Assembly (NCBI GenBank): GCA_963402885.1
Contig: OY727097.1
Location: 4,898,001 to 4,962,000, forward strand
Direction of reading: 5' to 3'
Origin: Antedon bifida
Taxonomy: Eukaryota > Echinodermata > Crinoidea > Comatulida > Antedonidae
DNA length: 64,000 bases
Position 1 is the stretch's first letter, and every line of letters starts with the position of its first letter. Position numbers and translations under genes: made by a program. Positions 27,148 to 53,999 of this stretch are shown piece by piece. Under the pieces are notes generated by a model that was not told where the DNA came from, did no database searches, and saw only the letters and a list, made by a program, of their open reading frames with translations.

Positions 27148-30100
27148 ATGGTTAAAATGCTTCGGTGCATTGTGGTGTTAACTGCTTTGGTTGTTAGTGC
27201 ACATGGTCTGGACAACGGTCTTGCACTTACGCCACCTATGGGTTGGATGTCATGGGAACGATTCAGATGTAATATAGACTGCAAAAACCAACCAAATGAC
27301 TGCATAGGGTAAGAGCAACCCACCTTTCCTCATGGAACTTTTTATCTCTGCTTACTTCCTGCTTCCTATCCAGTCATGCAGCCACGTTGCCCACTCCTAA
27401 TATCTCATGATCTCTTCCCATCTGCAGCTACCCTCCATCTCCATATCTCCTTTGGCCTTTGGAGCCCTTCTCCACATCTGCAGCCCCCTCTCCACATTTG
27501 CAACCACATCCCCACATCTGCAGCCCCTCCCCAAATCTGCAGCCCTCCCACTTATCTGTAGCTACCCTCGCATCTGCATCCCCTCTCCACCTCCATACTG
27601 TATCTCCTCTGCAGCTCCTCTCCACATCTTCAGCTCTTCCCCTATCTGCATCCCCTCTCCACCTCCATATCTCCTCTACAGCTCCTCTCCACATCTGCAG
27701 CCCCTCTTCACATCTGCAGCCCCTCTTCACATCTGCAGCCCCTTCACCTATCTGCATCTCCTCTCCACCTCCACATTTTCATTGCCTCCTCTCTCAAAAT
27801 ATGCAGCCCCTCTTCTCCACTGTCCAATAACATGTTCTGCTTTATTAATTCAGTGAGAAGCTATTTATGGATATGGCTGATAGAATGGTTGAAGATGGCT
27901 TTAAAGACGCTGGCTACGAGTATGTCAACATTGATGACTGTTGGGATTTAAAAGAACGAGATAGTGCTGGAAAATTACAAGCAGATCCTGACCGCTTTCC
28001 ATCAGGAATCAAGAAGCTGGCAGACTATGTAAGCAAACAAGAGTATTATAATTAAGATATAACTAATATATTTGCAATAAGCTCACATTTTATCAATTTA
28101 GTTAAACCTTATAATTGCCAAATGTATGCCTCTACAGTAGTTCAAAGTCCAATTTATTCGCCCTTTCAAGTGTGTGCAGAGCATACAAAATAGCAATAGT
28201 TTGGTTTTATGGCAATTCAAAAATGTTCATAAGATATAACAATGAAAGGCAATATACCAATTGTTTTCTGACTATATTGTTCACGTTCAACTACAATTAC
28301 TATTATTCTGCTTCGCTTATAGCAGACAAAACTATTTATAATAACAGTACTATATTGTTTTCAAAATTAATCTACCATGGAAACTGAAATGGTCACAAAA
28401 ATATTGATTAATCACGATAGATTAACAGTATTTGTGAAACAAAAAACAGATTGGCCACAGCTGTATAGGAATAACCTGTATGTTAAAAAAAAATCCATTT
28501 TCTATTCAATTTGAATAAAAACGCATCATGGCTGTTTGCTCAGTACAATGGTTTTTATCATGGCAAAATATGATTACATTTTTTTTATGAAAACATGTAC
28601 TGTATTGTCCTCCTGAAAAAAAACCCTGTAATATAAAACAGTCACATTGACTGGAATTCAGTGGGTTTCTGGTTAAATTTAACTGTTTTTTTTATCTTCT
28701 TATAGGGAAATAATTTTTTTCTATGGAAGTGAATAACTTAATTAAAACTGCAAAATGGGCTAATAAAATTTGATTTTATAAATCTTTATTTTTCATGATT
28801 TTGTGGGAGAACATCTTTAAATGAGAACATTACATACTTATTCGTTCTTATATATTCGTTTTTCGAATTCGTTTATATGTTCAAGGTACATTCAAGAGGG
28901 CTTAAACTTGGTATTTACAATGATTTTGGCACCAAAACATGTGGTGGCTACCCTGGTAGTTTAGGCCATCTTGAAGTCGATGCTAAAACATTTGCTGAAT
29001 GGGGTGTGGACATGCTTAAGATGGATGGATGCTATGCTGATGTTAAGACAATGCCACAAGGTAATGCATTCATATAATACTGTCATGTTTAAGGCCACAC
29101 CAATAGCCTACTATTAAGGCCACACCCATAGCCTAGGATTAAGGCAACACCCATAGCTTACTATTACGGCCACACCCATAGCCTACTATTAAGGCCACAC
29201 TGTATCCTAGGTAAGGCCATAGCCTAGGTAAGCCCATGGCCTATGATTAAGGTCACACCCATAGCCTAGGATTAAGGCCACGGCTATAGCCTACTATTAA
29301 GGCCACATCTATACAATTTGTCAACATTACCATCTTAAATGTGTCTTATTTCTTGATTTATCCAATATGCAAGACTTGAGAAAGTACCATTTGACTGGAT
29401 TATCCAAGTGCAAAATAAAGTCCTCATCATATTATTAAGCTTTACTTTGAATAAACGTAAACATGACTGATGCTGTGTAATACAGTTGTTTTTTTCCCCT
29501 AGGCTACTCTAACATGACCAAGGCTTTGAATGCAACAGGCAGACCAATCCTATTCTCATGTAGTTGGCCTGACTATGAACGAGCCAGTAAAATACAGGTA
29601 GTTAAATTGGGTTAAATTACAGCACTAAATGTTAAAATTTGAAGTTTTTTATGTTTTTAAAAATGATTCTATATTTCTATAACATATATTCCTTAACAAT
29701 GACAGGATGAGAAATAAAAAATACTTATAAACTTTTGTGATACTTTGTTTTCGGTGATAAAGATTGAACCAGGAATTGAAACCAGGATCCTGAAATTGAT
29801 AGGCAAACATGTTAACCACCACGCTACTGTCACTACATATAATTTAAGCGTAAATATAAATTTGATTTTATTCGCAGCCTGATTACAAACTAATTGCAAA
29901 GAACTGCAATATCTGGAGGAACTACATTGACATCCAGGATTCATGGGATAGCGTTCTGAAAATAATAGATTACTACGCCCAAGAACAAGACACCCTAGCT
30001 GCTGTGTCAGCACCTGGAAGCTTCAATGACCCTGACATGGTATGTTCCAACACTCTTAAGCCCTGTTTACATTATCAAACTTTATGTGACAAAAAAGTGT

Positions 30101-30740
30101 GGTGTGCCCAAATATGGTAGTGATATGGCCACATATGGTAGTGATATGACATCATCATGTCCATATATGGGCACATCACTTTTTTTTGTTACATAAAGTT
30201 TGATAGTGTAGACAGAGCTTTAAAAATGGTTAAAATATCTATTAGGATTATCGTACTTGTTGAGAATATTTTTACAGTATAATCAAATAATACAAAATGA
30301 TCCATTAATTCAACCTATGACATTAAAAAAATGATTGATTAAAAAATGTTGACCAATGTTTTATCTGCACTGTGAGTATTGGTCTAACCTTTTTAAGGGT
30401 TCATTTACAACAAAACTGGAAGTTCAAAGACTTCATTAACTTCATTCTGCTGGATTTTAGGGTAAACAAAGGTCCTAGTGCTTCCAGGTGCTTAAAAATG
30501 TTATAAACACCGATTACAATTCTCATAATTCTTGTCTTTTAGTTGATAATTGGAGATTTTTCATTAAGTGTGGAACAAGCTAAAGCCCAGATGGCGATGT
30601 GGTCTATATTAGCTGCCCCAATGCTCATGTCAAACGACCTTCGAACTATCTCTCCTGAATTCCGAGAGATTCTTCTAAATAAGGAAGTGATTAAAATCAA
30701 TCAAGATCCCTCGGGAAAAATGGGAAAGCGAGTTATGCAG
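27148..30740 (+). CDS. GH27 alpha-galactosidase / alpha-N-acetylgalactosaminidase, constitutive exons 1-6
   Basis: Exons 27148-27308, 27854-28028, 28886-29060, 29503-29597, 29878-30039 and 30543-30740 give 322 residues that end in phase 0 before a choice of five terminal exons. Lysosomal GH27 enzymes remove terminal alpha-galactose or alpha-GalNAc. Visible: signal peptide 1-20 ([20 protein letters not shown]), [14 protein letters not shown] start of the barrel, NIDDCW, nucleophile Asp159 in LKMDGCYAD, acid/base Asp220 in [11 protein letters not shown], and [11 protein letters not shown] / INQDPSGK at the end. The specificity loop reads SCSWPDY: Ser191 is as in alpha-GalNAcase (galactosidase has Glu), while Asp194 replaces the usual Ala or Leu. 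The exon 6 boundary (MQ / xxxVEVW) matches the last intron of human GLA as I recall it. Substrate is undecided. Confidence 0.93.
27420..27830. repeat. CT-rich minisatellite in GH27 intron 1
   Basis: Imperfect tandem units of CTCTCCACATCTGCAGCCCC and variants, about 20-30 bases each. Several overlapping open frames here are caused by the low complexity and are not genes. Confidence 0.85.
29087..29315. repeat. 25-26 bp minisatellite in GH27 intron 3
   Basis: About nine units based on AAGGCCACACCCATAGCCTA. The array begins with CTGTCATGTTTAAGGCCAC, which is identical to the 3' end of terminal exon 7a. Confidence 0.9.
29756..29838 (-). mobile_element. tRNA-derived SINE head
   Basis: On the minus strand: TAGCGTGGTGGTTAACATG (A-box region) and GGTTTCAATTCC (B box), the same architecture as the SINE at 16378. 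It lies in GH27 intron 4. Confidence 0.5.
30056..30223. mobile_element. MITE family A, copy 5
   Basis: Full-length, with a small internal duplication of the CAAATATGGTAGTGATATG motif. GH27 intron 5. Confidence 0.85.
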
Positions 30741-31861
30741 GTAACATACTTATTTTTATTATGAATTGTTTCTAGTTTGAATATATTTAAATCTTTGGAT
30801 TCAGAGTTCAGATTTTTGCCGCAATAGAGTAGTTAAAGCGCACTCTACAGGCAAGTATTGCTTTGCGCAATATTCAAGTCTACCGTGTTGCAAAAAGCTG
30901 TAATCATTGAAATGGGAGAAAATAATGCATGGTATGTGATATGAAATCAACCAATCAAATGATAGATTTAGGTGTGTTATAGTCATCATCTGATGAAAGT
31001 ACTTGAGGTAGTGAGCAAATGATAAAAACAAGTTTTATTAACAATGTTCTGTGTTTAATAAGCATGTGTTTAAAGAACACAGTGCATTATGCCAAAAATA
31101 TTATATCGTCTATGGCAGTCTGCCAAATTTATCATGAAACCGACTCCACTGAAGTGAAGGCTACTAGACTGGTCTACTAGACTTTTGTGGGCTACCCTTT
31201 GTGAACCATTGAGGCTATTCCACTGACGACCGCACTCTGCAAATGTTTGAAAATGTTTAACAGTTGTCCAGCGCTGTGAGCTTGCACTGGATGGAGTATT
31301 TCTCCTTCAATTTTATAAATTTCTAATGCGTATGAAATTTTTAAAACAGCTGTATTCACCACTGTTTTTATTGTGGCGCAGATATTATTATTATTCTTTA
31401 TTGACAACTAGGGATAACAGTGTCCAACATATACTGTACATGCATGCTCACTATGGGATTGTCTGCATTTCTTTACTACTTAACCATTAACAGTTATTTT
31501 TCTGTTGTTGTATTGTATTACTCACCTTTAACATAACCTATTACCATAATTCACTATTGACTGGTGTTGGATTTTTGGACTATTCTTGTGGTTTTCTACT
31601 TTATTTTCAACATTTCTTGCCTTTACAATAATATGTTAGTTCCTGCTCCAGTGATTTCTTATTTAAGTAAACACTGAGTAATCTTTTGATAGTACTCTAG
31701 AATCACTGAAATCAAGCCAAAGTTCTTTTTTATTGCCTATTGTCTATTAGCATAAAAGTTCCAATGTAAGTAGATATTCTTAACATAAACATGGCTTTAT
31801 TTCCTTTAAAACAGATTTAATTATATCAGAAATTATTTCCTTATGTTGTTAAAGTTAAGAT

Positions 31862-31953
31862 TTAAGCTCTGACTACAATGTTAAAAAAGTGTGATGTGCC
31901 CAAATATGATTTTTGTTTGTCACAAGAAGTTTGATAGTTTAGACGGAGCTTAA
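31862..31953. mobile_element. MITE family A, copy 6 (internally deleted)
   Basis: Both ends are present (TTTAAGCTCTGACTAC / GATAGTTTAGACGGAGCTTA) but most of the middle is missing. Confidence 0.75.
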
Positions 31954-32229
31954 TGGAAGTTTCATCACAGATTATGATTTAGATTTTTAAACTAATGCAT
32001 CCATGCGCACTGTGATCATAGCCTTTGTTTAAAATGTGTGAGAAGAACACTTTACTAACCTTTAATAGCGCTATATATAACTATATTTTTTAGGAACCGT
32101 TTTGGTATTTGGCATAGTCCTCTATTGTCTGTAAATAAAGCAAAACAGATCACATATGCTTTCAAGATATATATCAATAAAATAATTATTAAGTACATAC
32201 ATTAAATGATTTCTGTAAACAAAGTTGTT

Positions 32230-32460
32230 AGGACCAAACAAAGTGTCCCCTTAATAGGGGTATCACCTGAATAAGGGGTGTCCCCTGAATAAGGGGTGGC
32301 CTGATGTTAAAACCTATATTGCACCTCCCAGGAAAGGGTTCCCTTAATATGGGTGTGTCCCCTGAACAAGGAGTGGCCTGATGTTAAAACATATATTGCC
32401 CCTCCCAGGAAAGTGTTCCCTTAACATGGGTGTGTCCTCAGAATAGGGATGTCCCAGATG
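32230..32460. repeat. Tandem repeat of GGGTGTCCCCTGAATAAGG type
   Basis: About 2.5 units of roughly 85 bases containing GGCCTGATGTTAAAAC and CTCCCAGGAAAG. Related GGACAC(C/T)CCTATTAAGGG motifs occur at about 36495 and 36675. Confidence 0.8.
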
Positions 32461-32750
32461 AGGAAGAGTCTGCAGTGATTTGAAATATGTTGAAAAAATT
32501 CAGTTGAATATAGCTGCATTTAAACAGGACGCATTCAAGACATTTATTGTTATTTTAACCCTGACTTTCAAATCCAATCAACCTATTTTAAAATTTGCAA
32601 TTTTTAACTTATTCAATACTTGGTGTTGGGCTTCACTATTTTATATCATTTATTTATTCAATTAAAGAAAATAATTTTGTTTTTTTCGTATATATCCAAT
32701 GTGATATTGTTATCATTTATTTAAAAACTCCATTTCGCCTCACTCCACAG

Positions 32751-33011
32751 ACCCAATCACACATGGAGGTTTGGACTCGGGAACTATCATCAAACGCTTT
32801 GGCCGCTGTGATATTTAGCCGCAGCCAGAGCGCTCCGGCCATTTTTGAAACGACCTTAGAGAATCTGAAGTTTCCGACGACATCAAAGGGTTATAGTGTA
32901 TTTGATGTTACTGATAATAAACCTTTGGGGAATTACGCTTTAAATGAAACATTGTCTTTTATAGTCAACCCTAGTGGTGCTGTCATGTTTAAGGCCACGC
33001 CCATAGCCTAG
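32751..33011 (+). CDS. GH27 alternative terminal exon 7a
   Basis: Acceptor CACTCCACAG precedes a phase-0 exon of 86 codons plus stop. It encodes the C-terminal beta-sandwich: SHMEVWTRELSSNALAAVIF at the start, VFDVTDNKPLG in the middle and NPSGAVMF near the end, the strongest match to the alpha-GalNAcase C-terminal domain (VxxINPSGxxM). Joined to exons 1-6 the protein is 408 residues. The last residues KATPIA and the stop codon are supplied by the AAGGCCACGCCCATAGCCTAG minisatellite unit, which replaces the normal domain end. It is the first of five tandem alternatives. The AATAAA hexamer at 33984 is a possible polyadenylation site. Confidence 0.85.
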   Translation, partial: TQSHMEVWTRELSSNALAAVIFSRSQSAPAIFETTLENLKFPTTSKGYSVFDVTDNKPLGNYALNETLSFIVNPSGAVMFKATPIA

Positions 33012-33170
33012 GATTAAGGCAACACCCATAACCTAGGATTAAGGCCACACCCATAGCCTAGGATTATAATCATATACGTCAGTACTTCTCGATTCTCTAT
33101 TATCTTTTATAATACACCCTAGTGGAACTGTCATGTTTAAGGCCACGCCCATAGCCTAGGATTTTAATCA
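32985..33170. repeat. Minisatellite overlapping the end of exon 7a, with a duplicated exon tail
   Basis: Units of the same 25-bp repeat as in intron 3 begin inside exon 7a and continue past its stop. At 33100-33165 a second copy of the exon tail appears (CTTTTATAATACACCCTAGT, then CTGTCATGTTTAAGGCCAC). Confidence 0.85.
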
Positions 33171-33171
33171 T

Positions 33172-34262
33172 TATACAAGTTCAGGGCAAATAATCTTTTA
33201 ATTTTAAAAGGTGCTTGTTGAGAGCCCAAAACTCATAATTATTTATGCAAAGAAACAAACAAAACACATATTTAACTTTTAATTTATCAATATTGATTTA
33301 ATTTCTATTTCATTTACTTTAATTTTATGTTTTATTAGCTATTTTTATGACAAAGAATTGGTATTACTTTGGACAATTTTCAGTTAATTAATTTGTTTTG
33401 CAGTTCAGTGTTCTATTTCATTAGAATACATGTTTGTTATAGTTTGTTTGAGCCATTCGTATGACAACGAATCGGTAATATATATTGGACAATCTTGACA
33501 GTCAATTTCAGTTGTAAAGTATTTAATTATTACGTTTTTGATTTAGTTTTTATTCAAACATTTATGATTCAATATTTACATATATTTATGATCTTATTTT
33601 ACTCGTAATTAACATGATAGATAGATTGAATGAATTGAAGTTATTGCCTTTTAAGTGATTTGCACATTGTATGATTTCTCAACAATTTATTTTGAAATGA
33701 AGGAAGTGAAAGTCTAATTATTACAAAACTTGACTGAAACATTTTATTTGTTTGGTTCTAAGAATCAAGAGCGTGAAGTAGACATATATCTAGTAATAAT
33801 AATAATTTGAGAAAAAAAACCGATTTTTATCAGTACTACATCTTCATATAATGAAGTATAATTTAAATCAACTTGCTGGTATAATAGTATATGTTTATGA
33901 AAAGTTTTCTTATTTTGCTTACTTAAGGCAGACCTTACTTAAATTTCATTCCGTCGAATCTTCTATTGTTAAAATCTCTCGGCAATAAACTGAATATTGT
34001 ATACGTTTTACTATTGTTTTTGTAACGTATTGGTCACGGAATACCGGACTTTAAAAAAACAGGGACAATGGGTGGGGATAACAATAACCCCATGCGATTA
34101 ATGTACTCAGTTGATCATGTTTTATTACAGTATTTACAAACTGTTCAGACGGGAGTCCATCTGTGGCAGTATACTAATATTATTAATGCTACTCCGAATG
34201 CGTTTGAACGATTCCCTTCCATTTTTCCCACTCGAAATTGTCCTCGATTTTTCCATTTTCAG
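33172..34262. other. Intron between 7a and 7b
   Basis: AT-rich, with no further exon or recognised element. It ends in the pyrimidine tract TTTTTCCATTTTCAG of exon 7b. Confidence 0.55.
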
Positions 34263-34535
34263 AGTGGTAATGTTGAAGTGTGGTCACGTGAACTCGGTTT
34301 TTTAGACGAGTATGCCTTAGCGTTTCTGAATCGTGGTACCGAAGGAACACCTCTGAACTTTACTGTACAACTTAAAGATCTTGGCTTACGGCCTGGAATA
34401 TATTTCCTTATAGAAATCTTTGAGGATAAAGATATTGCTGATTTTGACACGGATAGTTACTTCAGTACGATCATTACTCCAAATGGGGTGTCATTTATCC
34501 ATGCATATCCGAGCCAATTTTACAACTCAGTTTGA
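34263..34535 (+). CDS. GH27 alternative terminal exon 7b
   Basis: A strong acceptor (TTTTTCCATTTTCAG) and a phase-0 start, SGNVEVWSRELGFLDEYALA, then FLNRGTEGTPLNFTVQLKDL, TPNGVSFIHAYPSQ and stop: 90 residues, giving a 412-residue enzyme. It follows the same domain plan as 7a but the sequence is widely diverged, so it is an old duplicate kept open. A family A MITE begins 20 bases after its stop. Confidence 0.85.
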   Translation, partial: SGNVEVWSRELGFLDEYALAFLNRGTEGTPLNFTVQLKDLGLRPGIYFLIEIFEDKDIADFDTDSYFSTIITPNGVSFIHAYPSQFYNSV

Positions 34536-34555
34536 TAAAATTATATGCACATCCC

Positions 34556-34717
34556 TTAAGCTCTGTCTACACTATCAAACTAGTTCGTCAAAAAAAGTGT
34601 GATGTGCCCAAATATGGTAGTGATATTCCCATGGTAGTGATGACATCATCATGTCCATATATGGGCACATCACATATTATTTGTCACATCAAGTTTGATA
34701 GTGTAGACAAGGCTTAA
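34556..34717. mobile_element. MITE family A, copy 7
   Basis: Full-length; CTGTCTACACTATCAAACTA at one end and GATAGTGTAGACAAGGCTTA at the other. It starts 20 bases after the 7b stop codon. Confidence 0.88.
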
Positions 34718-34757
34718 TCGAAATAATTTCAAACCTTGGTTAAGACAAATATATATA

Positions 34758-34920
34758 AAGCTTGGTTCCCACTGTGACGCAACGCAATGACGTAGTTACA
34801 CAACGTAGGTGAGTTGACCAATGAAAAGCAACAGTTTGAAAAATCCATCCCTGATGATTGGTAAAATCACATGCGTTCCACTTACGTGCTTGCGTTGCGT
34901 TCTAGTGGGAACCCAGCTTA
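34758..34920. mobile_element. MITE family B, copy 2
   Basis: Ends GCTTGGTTCCCACT / AGTGGGAACCCAGC; interior GACGCAACGCAATGACG and TTGACCAATGAAAAGCAAC. Confidence 0.88.
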
Positions 34921-35193
34921 AAATCCGACTCTAAATCGTCTGTGACGCTACCAGTTAGATTATCACTATAGTATACAATGTATTGGTTCATAATACATAT
35001 GAGAAGAAGGTCTGATAAAACTACTAAATACAATTTTTCAAATATATAAATATATAGAATTGGAGATAGATTTTTATTCTAGTTGTACTTTCTATTACTA
35101 GTGTTTAGTTTCTTTCCATTTATGTATTATTTGCATGATACGAGACTAGTTTTAAAACGCATGTGATTGCATGAATCTCATTTCATTGTTGCT

Positions 35194-35362
35194 AAAGCTC
35201 TGACTACATTATCAAACTAGTATGACAAAAAAATGTGTGACGTTTCCAAATATGGTAGTGATATGACGTCATCGTTTCCATATATGGGCACATCACATCT
35301 TTTGTCACATAAAGTTTAATAGTGTAGACCAATACAATCTAACAAGATTAGACAGAGCTTTA
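35194..35362. mobile_element. MITE family A, copy 8
   Basis: Full-length apart from about 20 extra bases (CAATACAATCTAACAAGAT) inserted within the right end. Confidence 0.82.
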
Positions 35363-35500
35363 GGCTTGGTTACCACTACGACGCAACGCAAGGACGTAAA
35401 CGCAACACATATGACTTGACCAATCACTACAGCGATATTTCAGATGATCAAATTACGTTGATTATTGCGTTGCGTCCAATTGCTGCAATCCGGACCTAAA
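35363..35500. mobile_element. MITE family B, copy 3 (right end decayed)
   Basis: It starts GGCTTGGTTACCACTACGAC directly against copy 8 of family A. The right end is not recognisable. Confidence 0.7.
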
Positions 35501-35856
35501 ACCTCTAACAATTTTCTTTATACTAATAAAAATAACAAAACTTTGTGAAGAAAATGTATTGTATTTCTTTGTCGGGTTTTGCTTAAAATTTTTTTTAGCA
35601 TGTTTGTTATTAATTTACGCAAAATGAAGTTGTTTTATTGTTTTGACTAACTACAATGTCTAAAACTTAAATGACGTCATCGTAAAGAACACAATCCCAG
35701 CCTAGCATGAACATATTCCATTTCAATTACCATTCCAACTGCCTTTTGGTCTATGTACCGAATATCGAATGTATTCTTTTCGTCTCCAAATTGACACATT
35801 ATTGATTAACTATTTCATTATCTATTTCATTATTCCATTATCATCCATTTCACTAG

Positions 35857-36123
35857 GAAACCGGTATAGAGGTTTGGTCGAAAAGCACTGCCGACAATAA
35901 GCTAGCCATAGTGTTTCTGAGCAGACGAACTGACGGAATCCCAACTAATTATTCGATCATTCTGCAAGACGCCGGAGCAACATCCGACGGCACCTATGAA
36001 TTCGTTGATCTTTTTACGTGGAAAAGCTTAGGAAAGTTCGGCAAACGTGACACAATGGAAGTAGCGATCAACCCGAACGGTGTTCGGATGTTGCTCGGAA
36101 CACCAGCTAAAACAGCAGCCTGA
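35857..36123 (+). CDS. GH27 alternative terminal exon 7c
   Basis: Acceptor TTTCACTAG, phase-0 start ETGIEVWSKSTADNKLAIVF, then LSRRTDGIPTNYSIILQDAG, YEFVDLFTWKSLG, NPNGVRMLLGTP and stop: 88 residues, 410 in the joined enzyme. SRRTDxxPxxY resembles the alpha-GalNAcase C-terminal domain. AATAAA at 36402 is a possible polyadenylation site. Confidence 0.85.
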   Translation, partial: ETGIEVWSKSTADNKLAIVFLSRRTDGIPTNYSIILQDAGATSDGTYEFVDLFTWKSLGKFGKRDTMEVAINPNGVRMLLGTPAKTAA

Positions 36124-36233
36124 GATATTGCCATATAAGAATATTACTGTTTTGTTATCGATGGATCATCAGTACCGTCCGGGTAGCAACTATTTATCAG
36201 ATGTTTATGGGATACAGAGCCTGGGCACTTGCA

Positions 36234-36396
36234 CTAAAGCCTTGTCTACATTATCAAACTTTATGTGAATGTGATGTGCCCATAATTATATGGATATGAT
36301 GATGTCATACCACTACCATATTTAGGAATATCACTACCATATTTGGGCACATCACTCTTTTTTTTGTGATAGATTGATAGTGTAGACAGAGCTTAA
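36234..36396. mobile_element. MITE family A, copy 9
   Basis: Ends CTAAAGCCTTGTCTACATTA / GATAGTGTAGACAGAGCTTA, with a duplicated CACTACCATATTT(A/G)GG interior motif. It lies about 110 bases after the 7c stop. Confidence 0.85.
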
Positions 36397-37455
36397 ACTT
36401 AAATAAATATTTTGCGATACTGCGTGATTGACGCTCATAGACCAGCAGGAGAAACCCCATTCTCATTGACCGACGGGCAATACTTTTTAAAGGACACCCC
36501 TATTAAGGGCCGGGGACCAGGAGAAGTTTAGGCCCTTTAATAAAGTTTCAAAATCCATGTCTACAATATCAAACTTTATGTGACAAAAAAATGTGATGTG
36601 CCCATACCACTACCATATTTGGGAATATCACTACCATATTTGGACACATTCTCATTGAACGACGTATGTTTTAAGGGACACTCCTATTAAGGGGACCAGG
36701 GGAAGTTTAGGTCATTAAGGTTCTTAAATATTGTACATTGATTGATTAGTATGGTGTAGAATAGAGTGATCGTGGTCGTACTCTACAACTTTCCAAAGTA
36801 GTCATAAAAATTGGACATTACACATTTTTACGCTGGCATTTTTATAACGCAAATATGGACGTATTTTTAGTAGAGTTGGGTGAGAAGGAGGAGGAGGGTC
36901 TTTAAATATGACGAGTAGGCTTATAGAAATATGTTCTATTCTTTTTTTCTTTTGATATTTTTATATAACTTATAGCTGCAGACAAAATCTGATTTGGGGA
37001 TTTTTTTTATGATTTAGGCCTATGCTTTTAAAGTATAAATTCTAATAAAAGATACTATAATTATTATATTGTTTTACCTCGTATTTGACATTTACAATGT
37101 GCAATTATATGTACTGGTATAGTAACAGGGTATAAATTGGGACATTTTTTCTCGTTCCATTATTACACATCGTCCTCCTGCTAGACTCGTATTTCATTTC
37201 ATTAATTTATTTGACCAAAAAATAGCAATAAAAACAGGCCACTATGATGTATGAGTCAGTAATTCCTTTATACAATAAAAAAAAAAATATATCAATTTTG
37301 GTAATTTGAAAAACAATATTTACAATAAAATCCAATTACAGTATGTACAAATTTAAGATTTCAGGATAAAAATATAACATTTAAAAACAATACTTTTGTT
37401 TGAACCATCATCCATTCCGGTTTTTTTTATTTTAAAAACGATTGTTTTATGATAG
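36397..37455. other. Intron between 7c and 7d
   Basis: It contains a local duplication (about 36455-36545 and 36648-36720, sharing GGGGACCAGG and GAAGTTTAGG) around a half MITE. The rest is AT-rich with no exon. Confidence 0.5.
36545..36655. mobile_element. MITE family A, copy 10 (left half)
   Basis: CATGTCTACAATATCAAACT, then GTGACAAAAAAATGTGATG and two CACTACCATATTTGG units. The right inverted end is missing. Confidence 0.75.
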
Positions 37456-37710
37456 GATGGTGATGTAGAGGTGTGGACAAAATCTCTTGACCTCTGGGAA
37501 GAACATGCAGTTACTTATCTCAACCGAGGGGATTCGAACCAAAGGGTCTCTCTCCAGCTCAAGAACATCGGCTTCGACTATATCCTAGGCTATGAAGTTC
37601 GGGATATATTGAATCATATTGAGATAGGGCACCGGGAGCGAGAAGGGAATTTCACCGTCACTGTCCCGGCTAAGGGGGCTTACATGATATATGCGTACCC
37701 CAGTGAATAG
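37456..37710 (+). CDS. GH27 alternative terminal exon 7d
   Basis: Acceptor TTATGATAG, phase-0 start DGDVEVWTKSLDLWEEHAVT, then YLNRGDSNQRVSLQLKNIGF, a central GYEVRDILNHIEIGH, and a YMIYAYPSE end: 84 residues, giving a 406-residue enzyme. It is closely similar to 7e, so these two are the youngest pair. The usual NPxGV near the end is PAKGAYM. AATAAA at 38236 follows. Confidence 0.87.
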   Translation, partial: DGDVEVWTKSLDLWEEHAVTYLNRGDSNQRVSLQLKNIGFDYILGYEVRDILNHIEIGHREREGNFTVTVPAKGAYMIYAYPSE

Positions 37711-37882
37711 AGTGGCTTTTAAAAAAAAAATATTAAGATTTTAGATTTATAACACATAATTAATGGGAGTTGCCAAGTTCCGAGGCCTATGTTTTAGAAT
37801 CTATTCAACTATTAACTCCTCTCAACACTAACGTCTTCTTCAAGTGGTTTTAAATCCGACTAAGATTGAGATTTTGTTGAGG

Positions 37883-38096
37883 CAAGGCAATCTAACAAGA
37901 TGATGCTGAGAAATCAAAGGTTTTATATGTGGCTGCGACACGATCAGTTCCACGCCCTTTAATGGACAGCGCGTGCCTCGGAGAATAATGTACATATTAC
38001 TCGGGTATTTGTCGCAGGCAGACATAAGATCAAAGGACTGTTACGAGTTCCTATCTTTGCAAGGCAAGCTCAGTGTCCTGATGTTAGATTGCCTTG
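37883..38096. mobile_element. Small inverted-repeat element
   Basis: CAAGGCAATCTAACA at 37883-37897 is exactly inverted at 38082-38096, a 214-bp span without coding potential, just after exon 7d. Confidence 0.5.
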
Positions 38097-38605
38097 GCTG
38101 AGGGTAATACTGGCTCTTAGCCATGGAGATTTAGTTTAGTGTTTCCTGCCACTGTTGTTTGTGTGGGTGTGTGTTCACTCTTCCCTGGTGTTTTATCAGA
38201 TATTTATATGGCAATAATGAATAAGAATAAGCTGCAATAAATAGAAAATAGATAGACATTCTACTTTGCCGTATTACCATAGTATATATATATATATATT
38301 AGTTATTGGTATTTAGTTGAATTGTGTTTATTTTACATTAATGTAATTTGATCATGAAAGCGATATATAAATAAAAAAATAAATTTGAAATAATATTGAA
38401 TCGTACTCACAGAATCTTGGTCATGTAGGCCTACCATTATCTGTTACCGTATCTCGAATCACTGACTAAACTTCTTGTTAATAAACCGTTTACTAAAAAG
38501 TAAAGATCGGAATGTTTTTTTTGTTGTCGTCAAAAAAAAGGTGCGATCTTAATAAATTTTAAAAGGTGCACATGCACTAATTTGAAAGCGAAAAAAAAAT
38601 TGGAC

Positions 38606-38677
38606 TGACCCCGACGTGATTTGAACACGCAACCTTCTGATCTGGAGTCAGACGCGCTACCGTTGCGCCACGGAGTC
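38606..38677 (-). tRNA. tRNA-Trp(CCA), copy 1
   Basis: 72 bases folding as a standard tRNA: acceptor GACTCCG / CGGGGTC, D stem GCGC / GCGC with AACGGTA loop, anticodon loop CTCCAGA (anticodon CCA), T arm GTGTTCAAATCAC. A T-run terminator follows on the minus strand. It lies antisense in the GH27 intron between 7d and 7e. Confidence 0.95.
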
Positions 38678-38869
38678 AGATATTTCAATATCATACGGTA
38701 GACTTGTTTGACCTAGCCATTTGTGTGAGTCGTATTTGTCACAATTCAATAAAATGCGCGATTTTAAAAATCAGTTTAGTCGGCACTATGTTGATTATAA
38801 AAGGTACACTGATTTGAAATAGATCCTTTCTGGTCATCCGGTATAACAATAAATAAATAAAAAGTAGAC

Positions 38870-38941
38870 TGACCCCGACGTGATTTGAACACGCAACCTT
38901 CTGATCTGGAGTCAGATGCGCTACCGTTGCGCCACGGAGTC
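38870..38941 (-). tRNA. tRNA-Trp(CCA), copy 2
   Basis: Same as copy 1 except for one change, G to A at the base between the D and anticodon stems (position 26), which does not disturb the fold. A T5 terminator follows. Confidence 0.94.
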
Positions 38942-39302
38942 AGATGTTGATGATATACAGTAGACTTGTTCATTTGCCTTTAGTTTATATAAAGTTATTT
39001 ATTTATTTCTATGGCTATTGAATTCTGTTCACAGAAATTTGGAGTGTACGCGAAAAAAAAAATCGAAATCGATTTTATAGAAGTGGACACATTTGACAAA
39101 ACGACGTAGTGTAGGCCTACCTTATAAGTCCTAGCCTATAGGTTGACGTACATTTGTATTAATTTTATTTGTCACAATTCAATAAAAAGTTCGCTCTTTT
39201 TTAATCAGTTTAGTCGGCAATATATTGGTTGTAAGAGGTGCATGGATTTGAAAGCGATCAATTCTGGTCACCCGGTATAACAAAATAATATAAAAAAACG
39301 GC

Positions 39303-39374
39303 TGACCCCGACGTGATTTGAACACGCAACCTTCTGATCTGGAGTCAGACGCGCTACTGTTGCGGCACGGAGTC
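39303..39374 (-). tRNA. tRNA-Trp(CCA)-like, copy 3, probably a decayed gene
   Basis: The anticodon loop and T arm are intact. Two changes damage the D arm: the first stem base is C (breaking a D-stem pair) and the loop reads AACAGTA, losing one of the invariant GG pair, which also lies in the A-box promoter. Likely non-functional. Confidence 0.7.
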
Positions 39375-39643
39375 AGATATCAGTTCCATATAGTAGACTT
39401 GTTAATGTACCTTAATAGAAATTTAATAATTATTTATTTCTAGGTCGTTGAAATAATGGTCACAAACATTTGCGGCGTACGCGAAAAAATCGGGATCGAT
39501 TTTATAGAACTGGACAACCAAAAAACGACGTTTTTTCTTAATATTTATTTGTCAATCAAAAAAATGCGATCGGGATAACAACAAATAATTGAATGATTTG
39601 AAAGCGATCCCTCCTGGTCATTCAAGGTAAAAAAAAAATAAAC

Positions 39644-39715
39644 TGACCCCGACGTGATTTGAACACGCAACCTTCTGATCTGGAGTCAGACGCGCTACCG
39701 TTGCGCCACGGAGTC
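39644..39715 (-). tRNA. tRNA-Trp(CCA), copy 4
   Basis: Identical to copy 1 over the 72 bases. A long T run follows on the minus strand. Confidence 0.95.
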
Positions 39716-40033
39716 AGATGTTAGTACCGTACAGTATACTTGTTCATTTGCCTTTAGTTTATATAAAGTTATTTTCTTAAAGTTTATTTCTATGACTATT
39801 GACATTTGGGGCGTACGCGAAAAAAAATCGGAATCTATTTTATAGAAATGGACACACTTGACAAAACAACGTAGTGTAGGCCTACTTTACCTAAGACCTA
39901 GCCTATATATTGACGTAATTTTATTTGTCACAATTCAATAAAAAGTTCGCTCTTTTTAATCAGTTTAGTCGGCAATATATTGGTTTTACAATTCTGTTCA
40001 CCCAGTATAACAAAATATAAATAAAAAATGGAC

Positions 40034-40105
40034 TGACCCCGACGTGATTTGAACACGCAACCTTCTGATCTGGAGTCAGACGCGCTACCGTTGCGCCACG
40101 GAGTC
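40034..40105 (-). tRNA. tRNA-Trp(CCA), copy 5
   Basis: Identical to copy 1. The flanks repeat around each copy (GTACGCGAAAAAAATCG, TTTTATAGAA, GATTTGAAAGCGAT), so the array grew by tandem duplication of a 260-430 bp unit. Confidence 0.95.
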
Positions 40106-40525
40106 AGATGTAAGTGCTATACAGTAAACCTGTTCATTTGCTTGTAGTTGATAGAAAGTTAATAATTATCTATTGTTACCCGCATAATAGTCAACAATGC
40201 CAACGTTGTCTATGCTTTATAATAGGGAGCTTCATTAATAGGAATTATGACTTATGACGTCATGTGGAGGTACCGTACTAGTTGGTTTTTAAATGTTTGT
40301 CAAGTCAGCTGACACACTTTCGCAAATCTATAGCTCATTGAATTCTGTTCACATATATTTTGGTTGTACGCGAAAAATTTGAATCGATTTTATAGAACTG
40401 GACGATGACTTGAGAAATAACGTGTCTATAATTTATTTCGGCTTTGACTCTATCTCGTCGCGAATCGAACGCATCTGAATTACCAATGTACTTTGCAGTA
40501 GATGTATGTAGCAACCATTACTAGT

Positions 40526-40662
40526 AAAGATTGGTTCCCACTATTGGACGCAACGCGAGGACGTAACGCAACCTTTGACCAATCACAAGCGATGGATTAC
40601 TCAAATAGTCGCTTGTCATTGGTCCAATCGCTTGCGTTACGTCTCTAGTGGGAACAAAGCTT
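40526..40662. mobile_element. MITE family B, copy 4
   Basis: TTGGTTCCCACTATTGGACG at the left and CTAGTGGGAACAAAGC at the right; the centre ACAAGCGATGGATTACTC / AGTCGCTTGTCATTGG is also an inverted repeat. Confidence 0.88.
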
Positions 40663-40748
40663 TATACAGTAGTAACCATTTTTTATAATTCAAGAACATT
40701 TCATAACTAGCTTAAGTTGTATTCAACTGTGTGAATTTTTACTTTTCT

Positions 40749-40902
40749 TAATCCTTGGTTCCCACTAGAGACGCAACACAAGGACGTAACGCAACGTAAG
40801 TGAATTGACCAATCACAAGCGATGGATTATTCGAACTGTCGCTTGTCATTGGTCAACTCGCTTGCGTTTACGTTCTTGCGTTATTAGTGGGAACCAAGCC
40901 TA
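40749..40902. mobile_element. MITE family B, copy 5, abutting the 7e acceptor
   Basis: CTTGGTTCCCACTAGAGACG at the left and TAGTGGGAACCAAGCC at the right. The element ends about 19 bases before exon 7e begins. Confidence 0.9.
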
Positions 40903-40921
40903 AATGAATGCGATTTTGTAG

Positions 40922-41173
40922 GTTGGTCTTGTGGAAATATGGGATAGACACCTGATGTACGACTCTCACGCCGTGATGTATCTTAATCGAGGAAGTGTGC
41001 CGCAGAATGTCACCATCAAACTGGAGAACATCGGCTTCGAGTATGGTCTAGGCTATGAATTGCGGGAAATATTGAATCACGTCGAACTTGGCCACTACGA
41101 CCGAACCGACAACTTCTCCGCCGTGGTACCTGTCTCAGGGGCATATATGATTTATGCATATCCCAGTGAATAA
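40922..41173 (+). CDS. GH27 alternative terminal exon 7e
   Basis: Acceptor GATTTTGTAG, phase-0 start VGLVEIWDRHLMYDSHAVMY, then LNRGSVPQNVTIKLENIGFE, GYELREILNHVELGH and a YMIYAYPSE end: 83 residues, 405 in the joined enzyme. It pairs with 7d. A MITE of family B ends just before the acceptor and one of family A starts about 20 bases after the stop, so the exon is boxed between elements. AATAAA at 41853 follows. Confidence 0.87.
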   Translation, partial: VGLVEIWDRHLMYDSHAVMYLNRGSVPQNVTIKLENIGFEYGLGYELREILNHVELGHYDRTDNFSAVVPVSGAYMIYAYPSE

Positions 41174-41193
41174 CACTGATGATATGCAACAAC

Positions 41194-41337
41194 TAAAGCT
41201 CTGTCGACACTATCAAACGTTGTGACAAAAAAAAAACGTGATGTGCACATAAATGAACATGATGATGTTATCACTACCATATTTGGGCACATCACACTTT
41301 TTTGTCTAACTAGTTTGATAGTGTAGACAGAGCTTTA
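41194..41337. mobile_element. MITE family A, copy 11
   Basis: AAAGCTCTGTCGACACTATC / GATAGTGTAGACAGAGCTTT. It starts about 20 bases after the 7e stop. Confidence 0.88.
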
Positions 41338-42478
41338 GATTTAATTACACAACCGATAAACAAAATATAAGAATTCTTTCTAATTTAATTTAGTAATGTG
41401 ACTATTAACAATTAAGACTATGATACAAATATCCTCCGTAAATTAAGCAATCTATATCAAATATAATAATAAATTAAAAGCTAGAGATACTATGTTCAAT
41501 AGAACATGAACCCAGTCAGATGAATCTTATGACCTTTGAACCTAAGCTTTAAACACGTCATTTATTATTGACCAAGTTTGATTGAAATCAGATTTGCATT
41601 TCCAGACTATAGTAATTTGGATTTTGACGTAATTAGTCCTAACATTTTTTTATTTTTTTTATATTACCAGCTTCTTAACTTTTTCCTGTTGTTGAAATGA
41701 ATACATAGGCGATTGAATAATTATATAGTAATAAACTATTTATAAAATGTTTCCTTATTTATTTATTAAATCTTTGATTTCAGGGTTCATCGAATGTTAC
41801 AGTTCATCGAATTCCCGTACTTTATATTCCAAATCATGCAGTATAATAAGTAAATAAAACACCCAAAACAATAATTAAATAATTATTATATATATATATA
41901 TATATAATAATGCTTTACAATTATTCATATATTTACTACATACTACAAAACATAGACAAACAATGTACATTGGATTTTGTAGTTAAAACACTTGGCCTAC
42001 AACAAACATTTTAATGTTTTGCATTTCCTGTTCATTTATGAGGTAAATGTAATCCCATAATCTTATCCTATTCTTGTATCTTTGTTTGGAATAGTTCCGT
42101 CAGATTATGCTTGTGCACAAAAAAAAACACAACAAAATGAACCGACATACTGTTTTTAATTGAAAGAAATACAGTATTATTATGAGCTAAATGTGGCACA
42201 AAACTGACATTACCAGAAACAAGTTTCACTTTAAATATAAGTATAGAACTGTACAGGTCTAGTATAAAGATCTGTCTACACTATCAAACTTTATGTGACA
42301 ACAAATGTGATGTGCCCATATATGTACATGATGATGTCATATCACTACCATATTTGAGTATATCACTATCATATTTGGGCACATGACACATTTTTTGTCA
42401 GACTAGTTTGATAGTGTAGACAGAGCTTAAGAGTCAACTTCTGTATTTAACACACAAAAAGAACTCCAACTACGTCTT
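41338..42478. other. 3' flank of otopetrin-like gene A, with MITE
   Basis: Gene-free. Blocks here recur 3' of the other cluster genes: TTCTTTCTAATTTAATTTAG at 41375 (also near 45880 and 56250) and CAGATGAATCTTATGACC at 41517 (also near 46035 and 51242). It also has a TA microsatellite at about 41885-41905. Confidence 0.65.
42266..42430. mobile_element. MITE family A, copy 12
   Basis: AAGATCTGTCTACACTATCA / GATAGTGTAGACAGAGCTTA. It lies about 50 bases beyond the stop codon of gene A. Confidence 0.88.
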
Positions 42479-44443
42479 TTAGAGCGGTTTGCTGGCTTGG
42501 TACAGCAAATCAATGGAAGTGAATCGATAATATGCAGCAAGGGGAAGGAATATAATATTGATGATTACAATAGTGTTTCCGAACGTTAAGTCATTTGTAG
42601 CAGTAGAATACTTTTCATTATCCGGAGAAACGAGTAAAAGTATGAACCACTGAGTTGCGTTTGTAATCATCAAATAAATTAAAGAACGACGAATGATCGC
42701 GTTACCTCCTTCATCTACACCTCTAGATCTCCGAGATTTTAGGATGAGCATTGTTTGCAGAGTTGATTGTACCAAGTTTATAACGGTCAATACAATTAGA
42801 CCCGTCTGTATCACTATGCTATAGTTAATTTCCGATGTATCGACGTCAACTAGTGTTTCTGTAAGGTTATGGAAATCTGCGATTAAATTACCGGTTGCCG
42901 ATATACCGTCACAGCAGCTCAACACAAATACACCGATTAAGCAAATCAGAAGAAGTATTTCGCTTCTGTTTAGCGACTTGTACAATTTCAGTCGGTTCTT
43001 ATCTAGGTACTTTTTAGCAAGTATTATTGCAATGATCATTGTAGATTTGTAAATGATGAGACTGAATATTAGGATGATACTGACGCTATCGTGCTGGTGG
43101 AGAGTATAAAACTCTGTCATGCTTATCACAAATATAGACATTAGTAGAAGCACCACAAATATCATTAATACTTTCCATGAACAGCGTCTGTTTGTAGATG
43201 GTATGCTAAAATCCATGCTATCGTCGGTACTTATCTGTTGTGTTCTGTTGGTTAGTGATCGACACTGTCTGCTTACGCAATCCTCTGTGTCACTTACACT
43301 TCCAATGTTTTCACTTCTGTCATCGTTCGAATGCAAACTTGTCCAGTAGTGAAGAAGAATACTCACAGCTAAAATATTGTACTCTTGTGAAAACGGTTGG
43401 AAAACACTTAGGAACTTCTGTATAGGAATTTGTACCAGCAGTGCATTCACACTATAGCACCAGACGACCTCATCATAGCTATTTGACGTAATGTTTGCTG
43501 GCTGTAAGTGAATCAAGGGCCAAGTCAGCTCCTGATATTCGACTTTTATTCCGAGTACAAGAATGCTTTCCTTTGCGATATTTTCCATCCAACTGAGAAC
43601 ATTCGCAGACATGGTTAAGATGAACACATATTGGAAAAAAGAGCAGTTCTTGAAGGAGGCACCTCTGAAACTTCGGAAGAACGCCACCTGAGCGATTGTA
43701 AAAAACACTTTAAAACAGTTGTATGCTACAAAGACAGATTCGCGATACTTCTCTTTTCGTCTGCTTAGTAACGGAACACACTTTCCAATAACTACAATGT
43801 TTGTCAAGGCTAGCACAATGTTGCAAATACCAAAGATATAAACACCGACAAGATGTTCAGAGTAGTTTTGAGAGTGAATGTTTCCCGGAGAAGAGCCCTC
43901 CAAAAGGAGTGGTTGACGTTCATCATTAGGAAGCAACTGAGGACATCTGATAAGGTCTAACCTTTTCCATGATTTTTTTCTTCGAAGAATTAATATGAGT
44001 ACCGTAACGGAAACTGTATCAAAAATAATACAACTCCAATCTAACGTGTCCCCGTGTACAGGATGACGTCCGCTACCGTAGAACGCAAACAGAAAAGCAA
44101 TATAAAATGACGTTATAAGGAAAAATACAATCATGGACAATACACGACCGTCTTCGACATAACTTTGCCGTGTTTTCACTAAGATGTCTCTGTCTTGATT
44201 CTCCAAAGCTGACATGTACTCACCAGTTGTCATACTCATAGCGTCTGTTGTTGTTGCTGCTGCTGCTCTGTCAACTGAATACATGTCTTGTAGCTCTAGT
44301 TGTTCCTCACCAGACCAGTCGTTGTCTGTTGCTGGTCCATTCTCAGAAAACCAATTAGAAGATTCTAGTTCTCTTCCCAAACCACACACAAATTCAACTA
44401 TGTTTCCATTTTCCGTTTCCCTTCCATTAGTAAATGAAGACAT
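42479..44443 (-). CDS. Otopetrin-like proton channel, copy A
   Basis: Uninterrupted 654-codon frame. Otopetrins are 12-TM proton channels with two homologous six-helix halves. Visible: cytosolic N-terminus (1-97); TM1 at about 102-121; TM2 138-153; loop with NDERQPLLLE (173-182); TM3 about 200-220 (GVYIFGICNIVLALTNIVVI); TM4 with FKVFFTIAQVAFF; TM5 with LTMSANVLSWM, equivalent to otopetrin L(M)xTxATNLxxWM; TM6 with QPFSQEYNILAVSILLHYW, equivalent to YPFNIEYSLxxxxxLYxxW; TM7-TM9 including LLLICLIGVFVLSCCDGISA; TM10 with QSTLQTMLIL; TM11 RRSLIYLMITNATQWF; TM12 FLPLAAYYRFTS. The last motif is PLxxFYRFHS in typical otopetrins; here His is Thr. The family call is mine from motif order, not a search. 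It stands at one end of the cluster with a non-repeated N-terminus. Confidence 0.82.
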   Translation of the reverse strand: MSSFTNGRETENGNIVEFVCGLGRELESSNWFSENGPATDNDWSGEEQLELQDMYSVDRAAAATTTDAMSMTTGEYMSALENQDRDILVKTRQSYVEDGRVLSMIVFFLITSFYIAFLFAFYGSGRHPVHGDTLDWSCIIFDTVSVTVLILILRRKKSWKRLDLIRCPQLLPNDERQPLLLEGSSPGNIHSQNYSEHLVGVYIFGICNIVLALTNIVVIGKCVPLLSRRKEKYRESVFVAYNCFKVFFTIAQVAFFRSFRGASFKNCSFFQYVFILTMSANVLSWMENIAKESILVLGIKVEYQELTWPLIHLQPANITSNSYDEVVWCYSVNALLVQIPIQKFLSVFQPFSQEYNILAVSILLHYWTSLHSNDDRSENIGSVSDTEDCVSRQCRSLTNRTQQISTDDSMDFSIPSTNRRCSWKVLMIFVVLLLMSIFVISMTEFYTLHQHDSVSIILIFSLIIYKSTMIIAIILAKKYLDKNRLKLYKSLNRSEILLLICLIGVFVLSCCDGISATGNLIADFHNLTETLVDVDTSEINYSIVIQTGLIVLTVINLVQSTLQTMLILKSRRSRGVDEGGNAIIRRSLIYLMITNATQWFILLLVSPDNEKYSTATNDLTFGNTIVIINIIFLPLAAYYRFTSIDLLYQASKPL

Positions 44444-46532
44444 ATTTGTTTCTATGTCTACACTATACGAAAACTTATTTCCTCATGTACAAAACGATTC
44501 AACGAACGAATTCATTGTACATGACTTGCATATATAAGAGTGAAATACAATCCGTCTCGGTAATATCTTGGTAATTTCCTTGTGTTATTCTTAGCCTCAT
44601 TGGCTGTACAGTAATCCCAACATTCATGAAGTGTATTGTGTACTTCTTCCTGGTTGTCGGTACTCACATAGACTTTCCCCAAGTAGTTATATTGTCTTTT
44701 TCATAATATTATTCGTATTACACCAGCAGCAGTTCATCATGTTTGATTTTTTGTCGATTCCAGCTCAATAAGTATACGTATGACACGCCATATGTGCCAA
44801 CAAATGCACCACCAAAATCTTGGCCAAACTACTCAAAATATATGCTATGAGTGCTTGATTTAAAACAAGCACAAACAGTAAAACTTATATCGACCATCAC
44901 CGAATTATTACTTGTTTCACGTCTTATTATTATTTAATTACACGAAGATACTTTTCTATTTGCACATTGTTATGGCATTCTCAAGATATATATTTATATA
45001 TTTTTAAACCAAACCATTATTAATATTCGCTAATAATTGGATGCAATCATGGAATAAGCGAGTTTTCCGCGTAATAATTAACTACATAGTAAAAAGTGCC
45101 AATTTCTTCTAATTATGTAGATTTTTACTTTTGATTGAACTAACATAAAGTACTTCAAATACCTTTAGTACGTGGCGCTTCATCGACAGTCTGTCGACTT
45201 CTTCAAGTGTTTGGATTGGTCTGTAATGTATGACGCTGTAATAATATGACAATAGTAGATTTTGGTTTCACTTCCTATAACATTCATGATTAAGTTTGAT
45301 TTTATTTATGCTATCGCATTTATTCGCTATTAGTTTATTGTAATTGACTTTTACACTTCTATAATTTCTCTTAAACATTTAAAATTAACAAATTATTATG
45401 ATTAATGTCAATAAATAAATAAATGATTATAATTATGTATCAATTATGTACAATAATGGTATATACATGATATTATTGAATGAAATTGAATAAAAGTGGT
45501 GCATGCCACAAAAAGAAAAAAAAATATTGTAATCGACTATCGCAAGTCATCTAGATACCATTATGTGTGTATTAAGTAGGCTGTCACTAGGTTCATATGT
45601 AGTGCATTGGGTATAGTTTTAGATTATGAATACACTTACATTATACAAACCTAAGTAGGGTAAATGCAACACCTTTCGTTTACTCTTAGTGTAAAATAAA
45701 TTAACTCCATTAGAAAAAAAAATCAATTCAATGGAAATGATCTAAATGACGTCACAAATTAATTGTAAATTTATTCGTCAAAATATCTTAACAAATCAAG
45801 AAATACTAACATTTCATTTATATATACCGACAAATTCTGTCACATCGACTAATAAATTGATTACAAAAGATAATAATGCTTTCTAATTTAATTTAGCAAT
45901 GTGACTATTAACAATTAAGACTATGATACAATTAGTCATGGGGTTCTCCGTGATTATTCCGAGAGCTGGCTTAACTAAAACAATCTACCAAATATCATAA
46001 TGAATAAAAACTAGAGATACTCAATAGAAGCCAGTCAGATGAATCTTATGACCTTTGAACCTAAGCTTTAAACACTCCATTTATCATTGACCAAGTTTGA
46101 TTGAAATCAAATTTGTAAGACTAACCTACTATCCATAATTATGTAAAATACAAATTTACATAATTACGTTATTATTACATTAATATTACATATTACGTAA
46201 GAGCTACACAAACACATAGTACAAGTCGTAAAACCTCTTCACCACGAGATCACGTGTACAATGACCATCAGTAGCCTACCTTTAGTTATACCAGTAATAA
46301 ACATCTAACATAAACAATAAAACATTTATTAGTGTAATACAGTAGTAGGATTTTTATTTTACATTAGTTACATTTTTTGTAATTGTATATAGTAGTTTGA
46401 TTTAGTATAGTTTTAGTATACTTTGTCATTTTAAAAGGACCCTAATATATCAGCTGTCATGCAGATCCTAAATAAAATAAAATTTTTGTTAAACCTAACA
46501 TTTTAACAACTTCATCTATTTACTCTGGAGTA
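44444..46532. other. Spacer between copies A and B
   Basis: It contains the 5' region of A and the 3' flank of B. Segments are paralogous to other spacers: 45155-45300 (AGTGTTTGGATTGGT region) matches 55640-55760, and the 45945-46150 block matches 50620-50656 plus 51219-51360. No gene was seen. Confidence 0.6.
44599..44682 (-). promoter_or_regulatory. Conserved upstream block of copy A
   Basis: On the minus strand a CCAAT box (44603-44599, CAGCCAATGAGG) lies about 155 bases before the ATG. Further upstream is TTGGGGAAAGTCTATGTGAG, shared by A, B, D and E. The GTGAGT inside the latter could be the donor of a non-coding 5' exon. Confidence 0.45.
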
Positions 46533-48932: not shown

Positions 48933-48960
48933 ATTTTCCAGGTCAGACCAGAATTCAGTT
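48240..48960 (-). repeat. 114-bp coding repeats in the 5' end of copy B
   Basis: Six units in frame. The match extends past the ATG into the 5' UTR: TGGTCTGACCTGGAAAATATG directly before and at the start reads as WSDLEN-M, the same as the unit junction. The repeat therefore includes the initiator codon. D has three units and E has four. Confidence 0.9.
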
Positions 48961-49027
48961 CAGGTTGAAATAAAATCCGTCTCGGTATGTAATATCTCGA
49001 TAATGTTCTTGTGTTATTCTTAGTCTC

Positions 49028-49171
49028 ATTGGCTGTACAGTAAAATCAATCATAAATTCATGCATTGTTTCTTCCTCATTGATTTACAGTTGACCACATT
49101 TCAATGTTATTTCAATCATTAAGTATTATTTCCTATTTCTTCCTATCGGTACTCACATAGACTTTCCCCAA
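49028..49171 (-). promoter_or_regulatory. Conserved upstream block of copy B
   Basis: CCAAT box on the minus strand at 49032-49028 (CAGCCAATGAGA) and the shared TTGGGGAAAGTCTATGTGAG block at 49171-49146. The block ends at a junction with copy F-type sequence at about 49175. Confidence 0.45.
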
Positions 49172-49184
49172 GTTTTTCTTTTAT

Positions 49185-49600: not shown

Positions 49601-49803
49601 GTTATTTTGTGTACTCTAAAAAGTTGAAAAACATAATAAGACGTCTACTTTAAATAGCATTAGGGTTAAAAGATCATTCGAAAATTCTACTGCTGTATAA
49701 ACAAATAACCATTTCTATAAGGCATGAACAATGAATGTTCAAAAACAACGTATAACAATGTAGGCTACGTGCCTTTAGATATAATGCTGGTGTGTCTATA
49801 TGG

Positions 49804-53993: not shown

Positions 53994-53999
53994 TTTTTT

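Follow-up and report, generated by a model that had tools for sequence, protein, structure and literature searches.

Can a single gene supply one catalytic domain with a choice of five C-terminal domains? The question is raised by a GH27 glycosidase gene of the crinoid Antedon bifida, located in a window of 64,000 nucleotides (nt) (assembly GCA_963402885.1, contig OY727097.1, positions 4,898,001 to 4,962,000; coordinates below are those of the window unless a contig is named), where six exons coding for the catalytic barrel are followed by five tandem candidate terminal exons, 7a–7e. An earlier note on this DNA had proposed that the five are alternatives joined to the same upstream exons. Having compared the locus with domain profiles, solved structures and the whole assembly, we consider it likely that this is a single GH27 gene with five predicted alternative terminal exons and 3' ends.

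Shared catalytic barrel and candidate terminal exons

The predicted exons are as follows; for the terminal exons, 2dL is twice the log-likelihood difference against omega (dN/dS) = 1, given as a range over two topologies.

27148..27308, + strand: exon 1, with the start codon, a signal-peptide-like N-terminus (by eye) and the beginning of the GH27 barrel (PF16499 and PDB matches)
27854..28028, + strand: exon 2, catalytic barrel (spliced frame and genome-wide PF16499 search)
28886..29060, + strand: exon 3, catalytic barrel (spliced frame and genome-wide PF16499 search)
29503..29597, + strand: exon 4, catalytic barrel with the specificity loop S-C-S-W-P-D-Y (spliced frame, PF16499, active-site comparison)
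29878..30039, + strand: exon 5, catalytic barrel (spliced frame and genome-wide PF16499 search)
30543..30740, + strand: exon 6, last shared exon, exits in phase 0, donor GTAACA
32751..33011, + strand: candidate terminal exon 7a, 86 amino acids, own stop, C-terminal beta-sandwich; PF17450 E 3.7e-11; 2dL 8.9–9.7
34263..34535, + strand: candidate terminal exon 7b, 90 amino acids, own stop; PF17801 E 3.4e-6; 2dL 5.0–5.2
35857..36123, + strand: candidate terminal exon 7c, 88 amino acids, own stop; PF17450 E 2.4e-11; 2dL 7.6–8.0
37456..37710, + strand: candidate terminal exon 7d, 84 amino acids, own stop; PF17801 E 1.1e-8; alone 2dL 1.2–1.3
40922..41173, + strand: candidate terminal exon 7e, 83 amino acids, own stop; PF17450 E 3.8e-6; alone 2dL 0.01–0.04

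Spliced together, exons 1–6 (27148–30740, + strand) encode 322 amino acids without a stop codon and end in phase 0 at position 30740. The spliced barrel covers the entire Melibiase_2 profile (PF16499, E 1.9e-147, profile positions 1–284 of 284), and the closest solved structure, with the barrel plus tail 7c as the query, is chicken alpha-N-acetylgalactosaminidase (1ktb, E 1.1e-148), which ranks before human NAGA and human GLA. On sequence comparison, the gene is a member of GH27, its predicted barrel being most like that of the chicken enzyme, and D140 and D201 are presumably the catalytic pair. In the PDB comparison with human GLA the segments correspond at the junction of exon 6 and the terminal exon, as far as an alignment alone can place it; we take the last intron of human GLA to lie at the same point as that of the window gene. 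Among the 13 active-site residues listed for chicken NAGA (PMC5445309), 12 are identical in the window gene, the sole mismatch being Asp instead of Ala at position 175 (chicken numbering), and Ser172 of the specificity loop (same numbering) is retained. Position 175, Asp in the window gene (29503–29597), is Phe in the paralog described below (C10:23709326–23709420) and Leu in human GLA.

All five terminal exons begin directly after an AG, are entered in phase 0 and stay open to their own stop codon (83–90 codons); the end of exon 6, the five acceptor coordinates, the phase and the separate stops given in the earlier note all proved correct. Each of the five passes the curated cut-off of the Pfam sequence profiles Melibiase_2_C and/or Melibiase_C, and the domain matches are therefore not due to chance. 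The shared motifs described in that note stood in part: the start, x-x-x-(V/M)-E-(V/I)-W, is exact in 7b, 7d and 7e, but 7c has I-E-V-W and 7a is one residue longer, and the end, P-x-G, is found in three of the five, with P-x-x-G in 7d and 7e.

The encoded tails share 23–38% protein identity in nine of the ten pairs. Their calculated net charge at pH 7 ranges from -0.2 to -8.4, and every tail carries at least one N-glycosylation sequon, at residues 31–32 in 7c and 7b, at residue 65 in 7a and 7d, and at residues 29 and 64 in 7e. Upstream of the acceptor the open frame continues for 53 codons in 7a and 79 codons in 7b (34026–34262), and for none in 7c–7e; neither extension matched a domain profile. 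An extra exon upstream of 7b, with the in-frame T-G-V-H-L-W, was considered and rejected, having no profile support.

Constraint on the terminal exons and genome-wide control

Judged by their codon positions, the terminal exons are old: the third positions are near saturation (identity 0.22–0.34 in nine pairs), while the first and second positions are conserved, more so than the third in all ten pairs. Even 7d and 7e, previously taken for a young pair, are not young, with 59% amino acid identity, third-position identity of 0.43 and about 4.6 neutral substitutions per codon; the codon model for this pair yields omega of 0.24 and rejects omega = 1 (2dL 19.0). Their DNA similarity extends from 20 nt of the acceptor to the stop codon and leaves out the rest of the 600-nt flanks. 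In the exon tree, 7d+7e and 7b+7d+7e have support of 0.93–0.98; the deep nodes are weak, with 7a grouping with exon 7 of the paralog at 0.41–0.52.

Fitted jointly to the terminal branches of all five exons, omega is about 0.16, and omega = 1 is rejected at 2dL of 33.9–36.4 under the two topologies; it is likewise rejected singly for 7a, 7b and 7c and jointly for 7d+7e (2dL 21.9–22.1). For 7a, 7b and 7c the free fits ran into the limit set on branch length; their omega values are therefore not to be taken literally, and the likelihood differences were used. Pairwise codon fits were finite for 7a–7b, 7b–7d and 7d–7e only, and ran to unlimited divergence for 7a–7d, 7a–7e, 7b–7e, 7c–7d and 7c–7e. 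The claim that the open frames have been maintained for a long time is borne out by the near-saturated third positions, the constraint at the protein level and the rejection of neutrality for all five exons jointly.

The genomic context was assessed in the 315.6-Mb assembly of 27 contigs, with the window on the 32.5-Mb contig C10; the genome-wide profile searches score the best candidates only, and counts and absences hold at that sensitivity. Mitochondrial COX1 of this genome reads best under genetic code table 9, which makes an echinoderm origin probable. PF16499 gave 12 matches, namely the six exons of the window gene and six of one paralogous GH27 gene at C10:23.706–23.712 Mb, 18.8 Mb away. 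All 12 being accounted for by these two genes, there was no sign of a retrocopy or of an additional exon set: processed copies that could record the splice junction are not among the matches, and separate gene copies are rejected, since no other set of exons 1–6 was detected nearby or elsewhere in the genome save the distant paralog. The same search tells against separate upstream exons for each terminal exon, the alternative singled out in the earlier note.

The paralog has its last intron at the same position and in the same phase as the window gene and is followed by one terminal exon; in the 26 kb beyond it no further domain match indicated a second one. Genome-wide, PF17450 found 7a, 7b, 7c and 7e (not 7d), PF17801 found 7a, 7c and 7d, and the 7d protein as query found 7d, 7e and 7b, in each case together with the paralog's exon and nothing else. 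Thus, by three query types the C-terminal domain is confined to two genes of the genome, and because the paralog has one terminal exon, the array appears specific to the window gene. A profile scan of open frames of at least 20 codons, in the window and 50 kb around the paralog, added a single match with E under 1, near 33088–33156, which repeats the final codons of 7a.

Alternative explanations and neighbouring repeats

Since the exons share phase and have their own stops, and no alternative upstream exons were found, choice among alternative terminal exons is the plain reading of the locus. One promoter would give one pre-mRNA, exon 6 would be spliced to one of 7a–7e, and cleavage and polyadenylation would follow behind the chosen exon, the predicted products being enzymes that do not differ in signal peptide or catalytic barrel but each have another C-terminal beta-sandwich domain.

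Several observations weigh against this reading. The acceptors of 7a–7e rank at the 66th–81st percentile of local AGs, by a matrix that was built from only 11 acceptors and has little power (constitutive acceptors were spread over the 44th–100th percentiles). Poly(A) hexamers are found behind all five exons, but relative to the shuffle mean (7a, 1/3.6; 7b, 1/3.2; 7c, 6/3.4; 7d, 13/6.2; 7e, 6/5.9) the counts are below or equal to expectation at 7a, 7b and 7e, and so do not argue for real sites there; behind 7c and 7d they reach about twice the mean. The GC content of four terminal exons (0.44–0.48) exceeds that of the flanks (0.30–0.34), yet it is weak evidence, because 7b (0.39 vs 0.36 in its flank) and the paralog's exon (0.34) are low and a value of 0.40 is attained in 27 of 181 windows of noncoding sequence as well. 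To look for a shared docking sequence in intron 6, 30741–32450 was compared with the 300 nt upstream of each terminal exon in 40-nt windows; the best common window (-17.8 kcal/mol) was weaker than all six shuffles (-19.4 to -22.3), and RNA docking of the PGRP-LC/pip type is thus rejected by this simple test. Finally, neither 7d nor 7e taken singly rejects omega = 1, so the dN/dS check suggested in the earlier note succeeded for 7a, 7b and 7c singly and for 7d and 7e only in combination. The paralog's sole exon 7 fails to reject it as well (2dL 0.40), and the single-branch failures therefore show low power.

These last results, together with the pyrimidine tracts of 7d and 7e, which look weak by eye, and the end of 7a, which sits in a minisatellite, leave some room for the explanation that only one or two terminal exons are still used and the rest are silenced relics that have acquired no stop so far. 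We regard this as unlikely, given that all five exons are open and in phase, that 7a, 7b and 7c singly reject omega = 1, and that no broken copy was found nearby except the 7a tail piece, though birth-and-death might leave some. Moreover, a neutral exon this long soon loses its open frame: with indels uncounted, its probability of staying open is 0.28–0.33 after 0.1 substitutions per site and less than 0.01 after 0.77. Individual terminal exons may nevertheless have died very recently.

Transcription of 7b–7e in separate units, with upstream coding exons of their own or by trans-splicing, is much less probable still. The open frames upstream of 7a (53 codons) and 7b (79 codons) make extended or independent first exons conceivable, but these extensions match no domain profile, no second set of exons 1–6 was found near the array or in the genome save in the distant paralog, and every terminal exon enters in the phase 0 in which exon 6 exits. 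An assembly artefact, in which haplotype copies or misjoined paralogs would appear as an array, can be rejected with near certainty: nothing was found in its favour, the protein identity of the terminal exons (23–38% in nine of ten pairs, 59% for 7d/7e) lies far beyond allelic difference, and the array is internal to the 32.5-Mb contig.

Two repeat features share sequence with the end of 7a:

33088..33159, + strand: incomplete repeat of the end of 7a (final codons and stop), located downstream of 7a (profile and repeat comparison)
29080..29324, + strand: 25-bp minisatellite in intron 4, sharing the 7a tail sequence and found only in the window gene

The last codons of 7a recur 148 nt further downstream and, 3.9 kb upstream, at the head of the intron 4 minisatellite. 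The same 25-bp minisatellite is also present at 32980–33160, where the final codons of 7a and its stop are part of it. A 27-base 7a tail sequence has three genome sites at up to 2 mismatches and a 29-base stretch of the minisatellite has seven at up to 3 mismatches, all of them within the window gene. As the 7a tail recurs both downstream and in intron 4, parts of the terminal exon have apparently been duplicated inside this gene.

Inverted-repeat elements of about 150 nt lie at 34555–34716, 36234–36394, 41193–41338, 30055–30220 and about 42264–42427, the first three beginning downstream of 7b (20 nt past its stop), 7c (111 nt) and 7e (20 nt). The hairpins behind 7b and 7e fold strongly (z of -12.0 and -9.3), but were rejected as regulatory elements, since they belong to a dispersed inverted-repeat family with 2607 first-look candidates (40 scored). 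Between 7d and 7e there are five tandem tRNA-Trp (CCA) genes (38605–40106, - strand), the third of which (39300–39375) scores lowest. Beyond the gene, intronless frames resembling membrane proteins are arranged in tandem over 42479–62027 (- strand), four of them long and intact (667–808 amino acids), with at least two split frames interspersed; the four intact frames had no Pfam match at E 0.001, and the one compared with the PDB showed faint similarity to OTOP3 (6o84, E 0.0047).

Known systems and possible roles

The architecture of tandem alternative terminal exons is already known outside GH27; the comparisons below rest on the available parts of the cited papers. In Drosophila, pip has eight tandem terminal exon clusters, classed among duplications of untranslated regions (UTRs), and in pip and PGRP-LC the terminal exon is chosen via competing RNA structures (PMC9013439). 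The window gene resembles both in having tandem homologous terminal exons, which there are mutually exclusive, behind shared upstream exons (PMC9013439), and resembles pip, coding for a sulfotransferase, in encoding a carbohydrate-modification enzyme; unlike them, it gave no docking sequence in the simple test. Category B of an existing classification, exemplified by human capping protein beta, comprises homologous 3'-terminal exons that have several poly(A) sites (PMC3228551); with these the array shares similar length, the same frame, homology, own stops and presumed own poly(A) sites, whereas it differs in having five copies, each encoding a whole domain. In human, 77 of 236 tandem-exon substitution events are at the C-terminus, and the tropomyosin genes TPM1, lev-11 and Tm1 likewise have three tandem duplicated 3' exons for homologous C-termini (PMC9741552). 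Anopheles gambiae GSTD1, too, is one enzyme gene that produces several isoenzymes via splicing (PMC1761136).

Within GH27, vertebrate NAGA and GLA combine, like the window gene, a barrel with a C-terminal domain. The available part of one source describes no alternative C-termini for vertebrate or starfish enzymes and reports different N-termini for the two starfish enzymes, I and II (PMC5445309), so that these two do not derive from one shared set of exons 1–6. For gana-1, an animal GH27 gene of Caenorhabditis elegans, RT-PCR reportedly showed no alternative splicing, as in its human and mouse counterparts (PMC548690). In agreement with the earlier note, literature searches gave, among the matches listed, no report of a GH27 gene built in this way.

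As predicted from its sequence, the window gene is distinct from the known cases in that a whole accessory domain is swapped and the whole catalytic domain kept constant. In pip, parts of the catalytic region too are encoded by the variable exons, whereas the catalytic domain of the window gene is constant; the alternative C-termini of tropomyosins are coiled-coil ends rather than a globular enzyme domain; and the GSTD1 variants use alternative last exons, with the variable part forming the substrate site.

Vertebrate GH27 enzymes are homodimeric, which makes up to 15 isoform dimers conceivable here, and starfish GalNAcase II is reported as a monomer (PMC5445309). A combinatorial locus of five isoforms and up to 15 dimers, with tail-specific targeting, pH range or partners and tissue- or stage-dependent regulation, is a tentative proposal that we consider rather doubtful. 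Because the tails differ in charge and in sequon position, sorting, stability and dimer contacts are likely targets, and the choice of tail may tune how the enzyme dimerises, its stability or pH range, and its sorting by glycans to the lysosome or for secretion, and not the chemistry of the active site.

GH27 enzymes attract study since, in humans, loss of GLA and of NAGA causes Fabry and Schindler disease, respectively. What the C-terminal domain contributes is difficult to tell apart from the contribution of the barrel, and one barrel with five long-kept C-terminal domains would offer natural, ready-made chimeras for probing it. If the predicted exon choice is true, this gene would represent an unusual swap of a metabolic enzyme's whole domain by the choice of the last exon.

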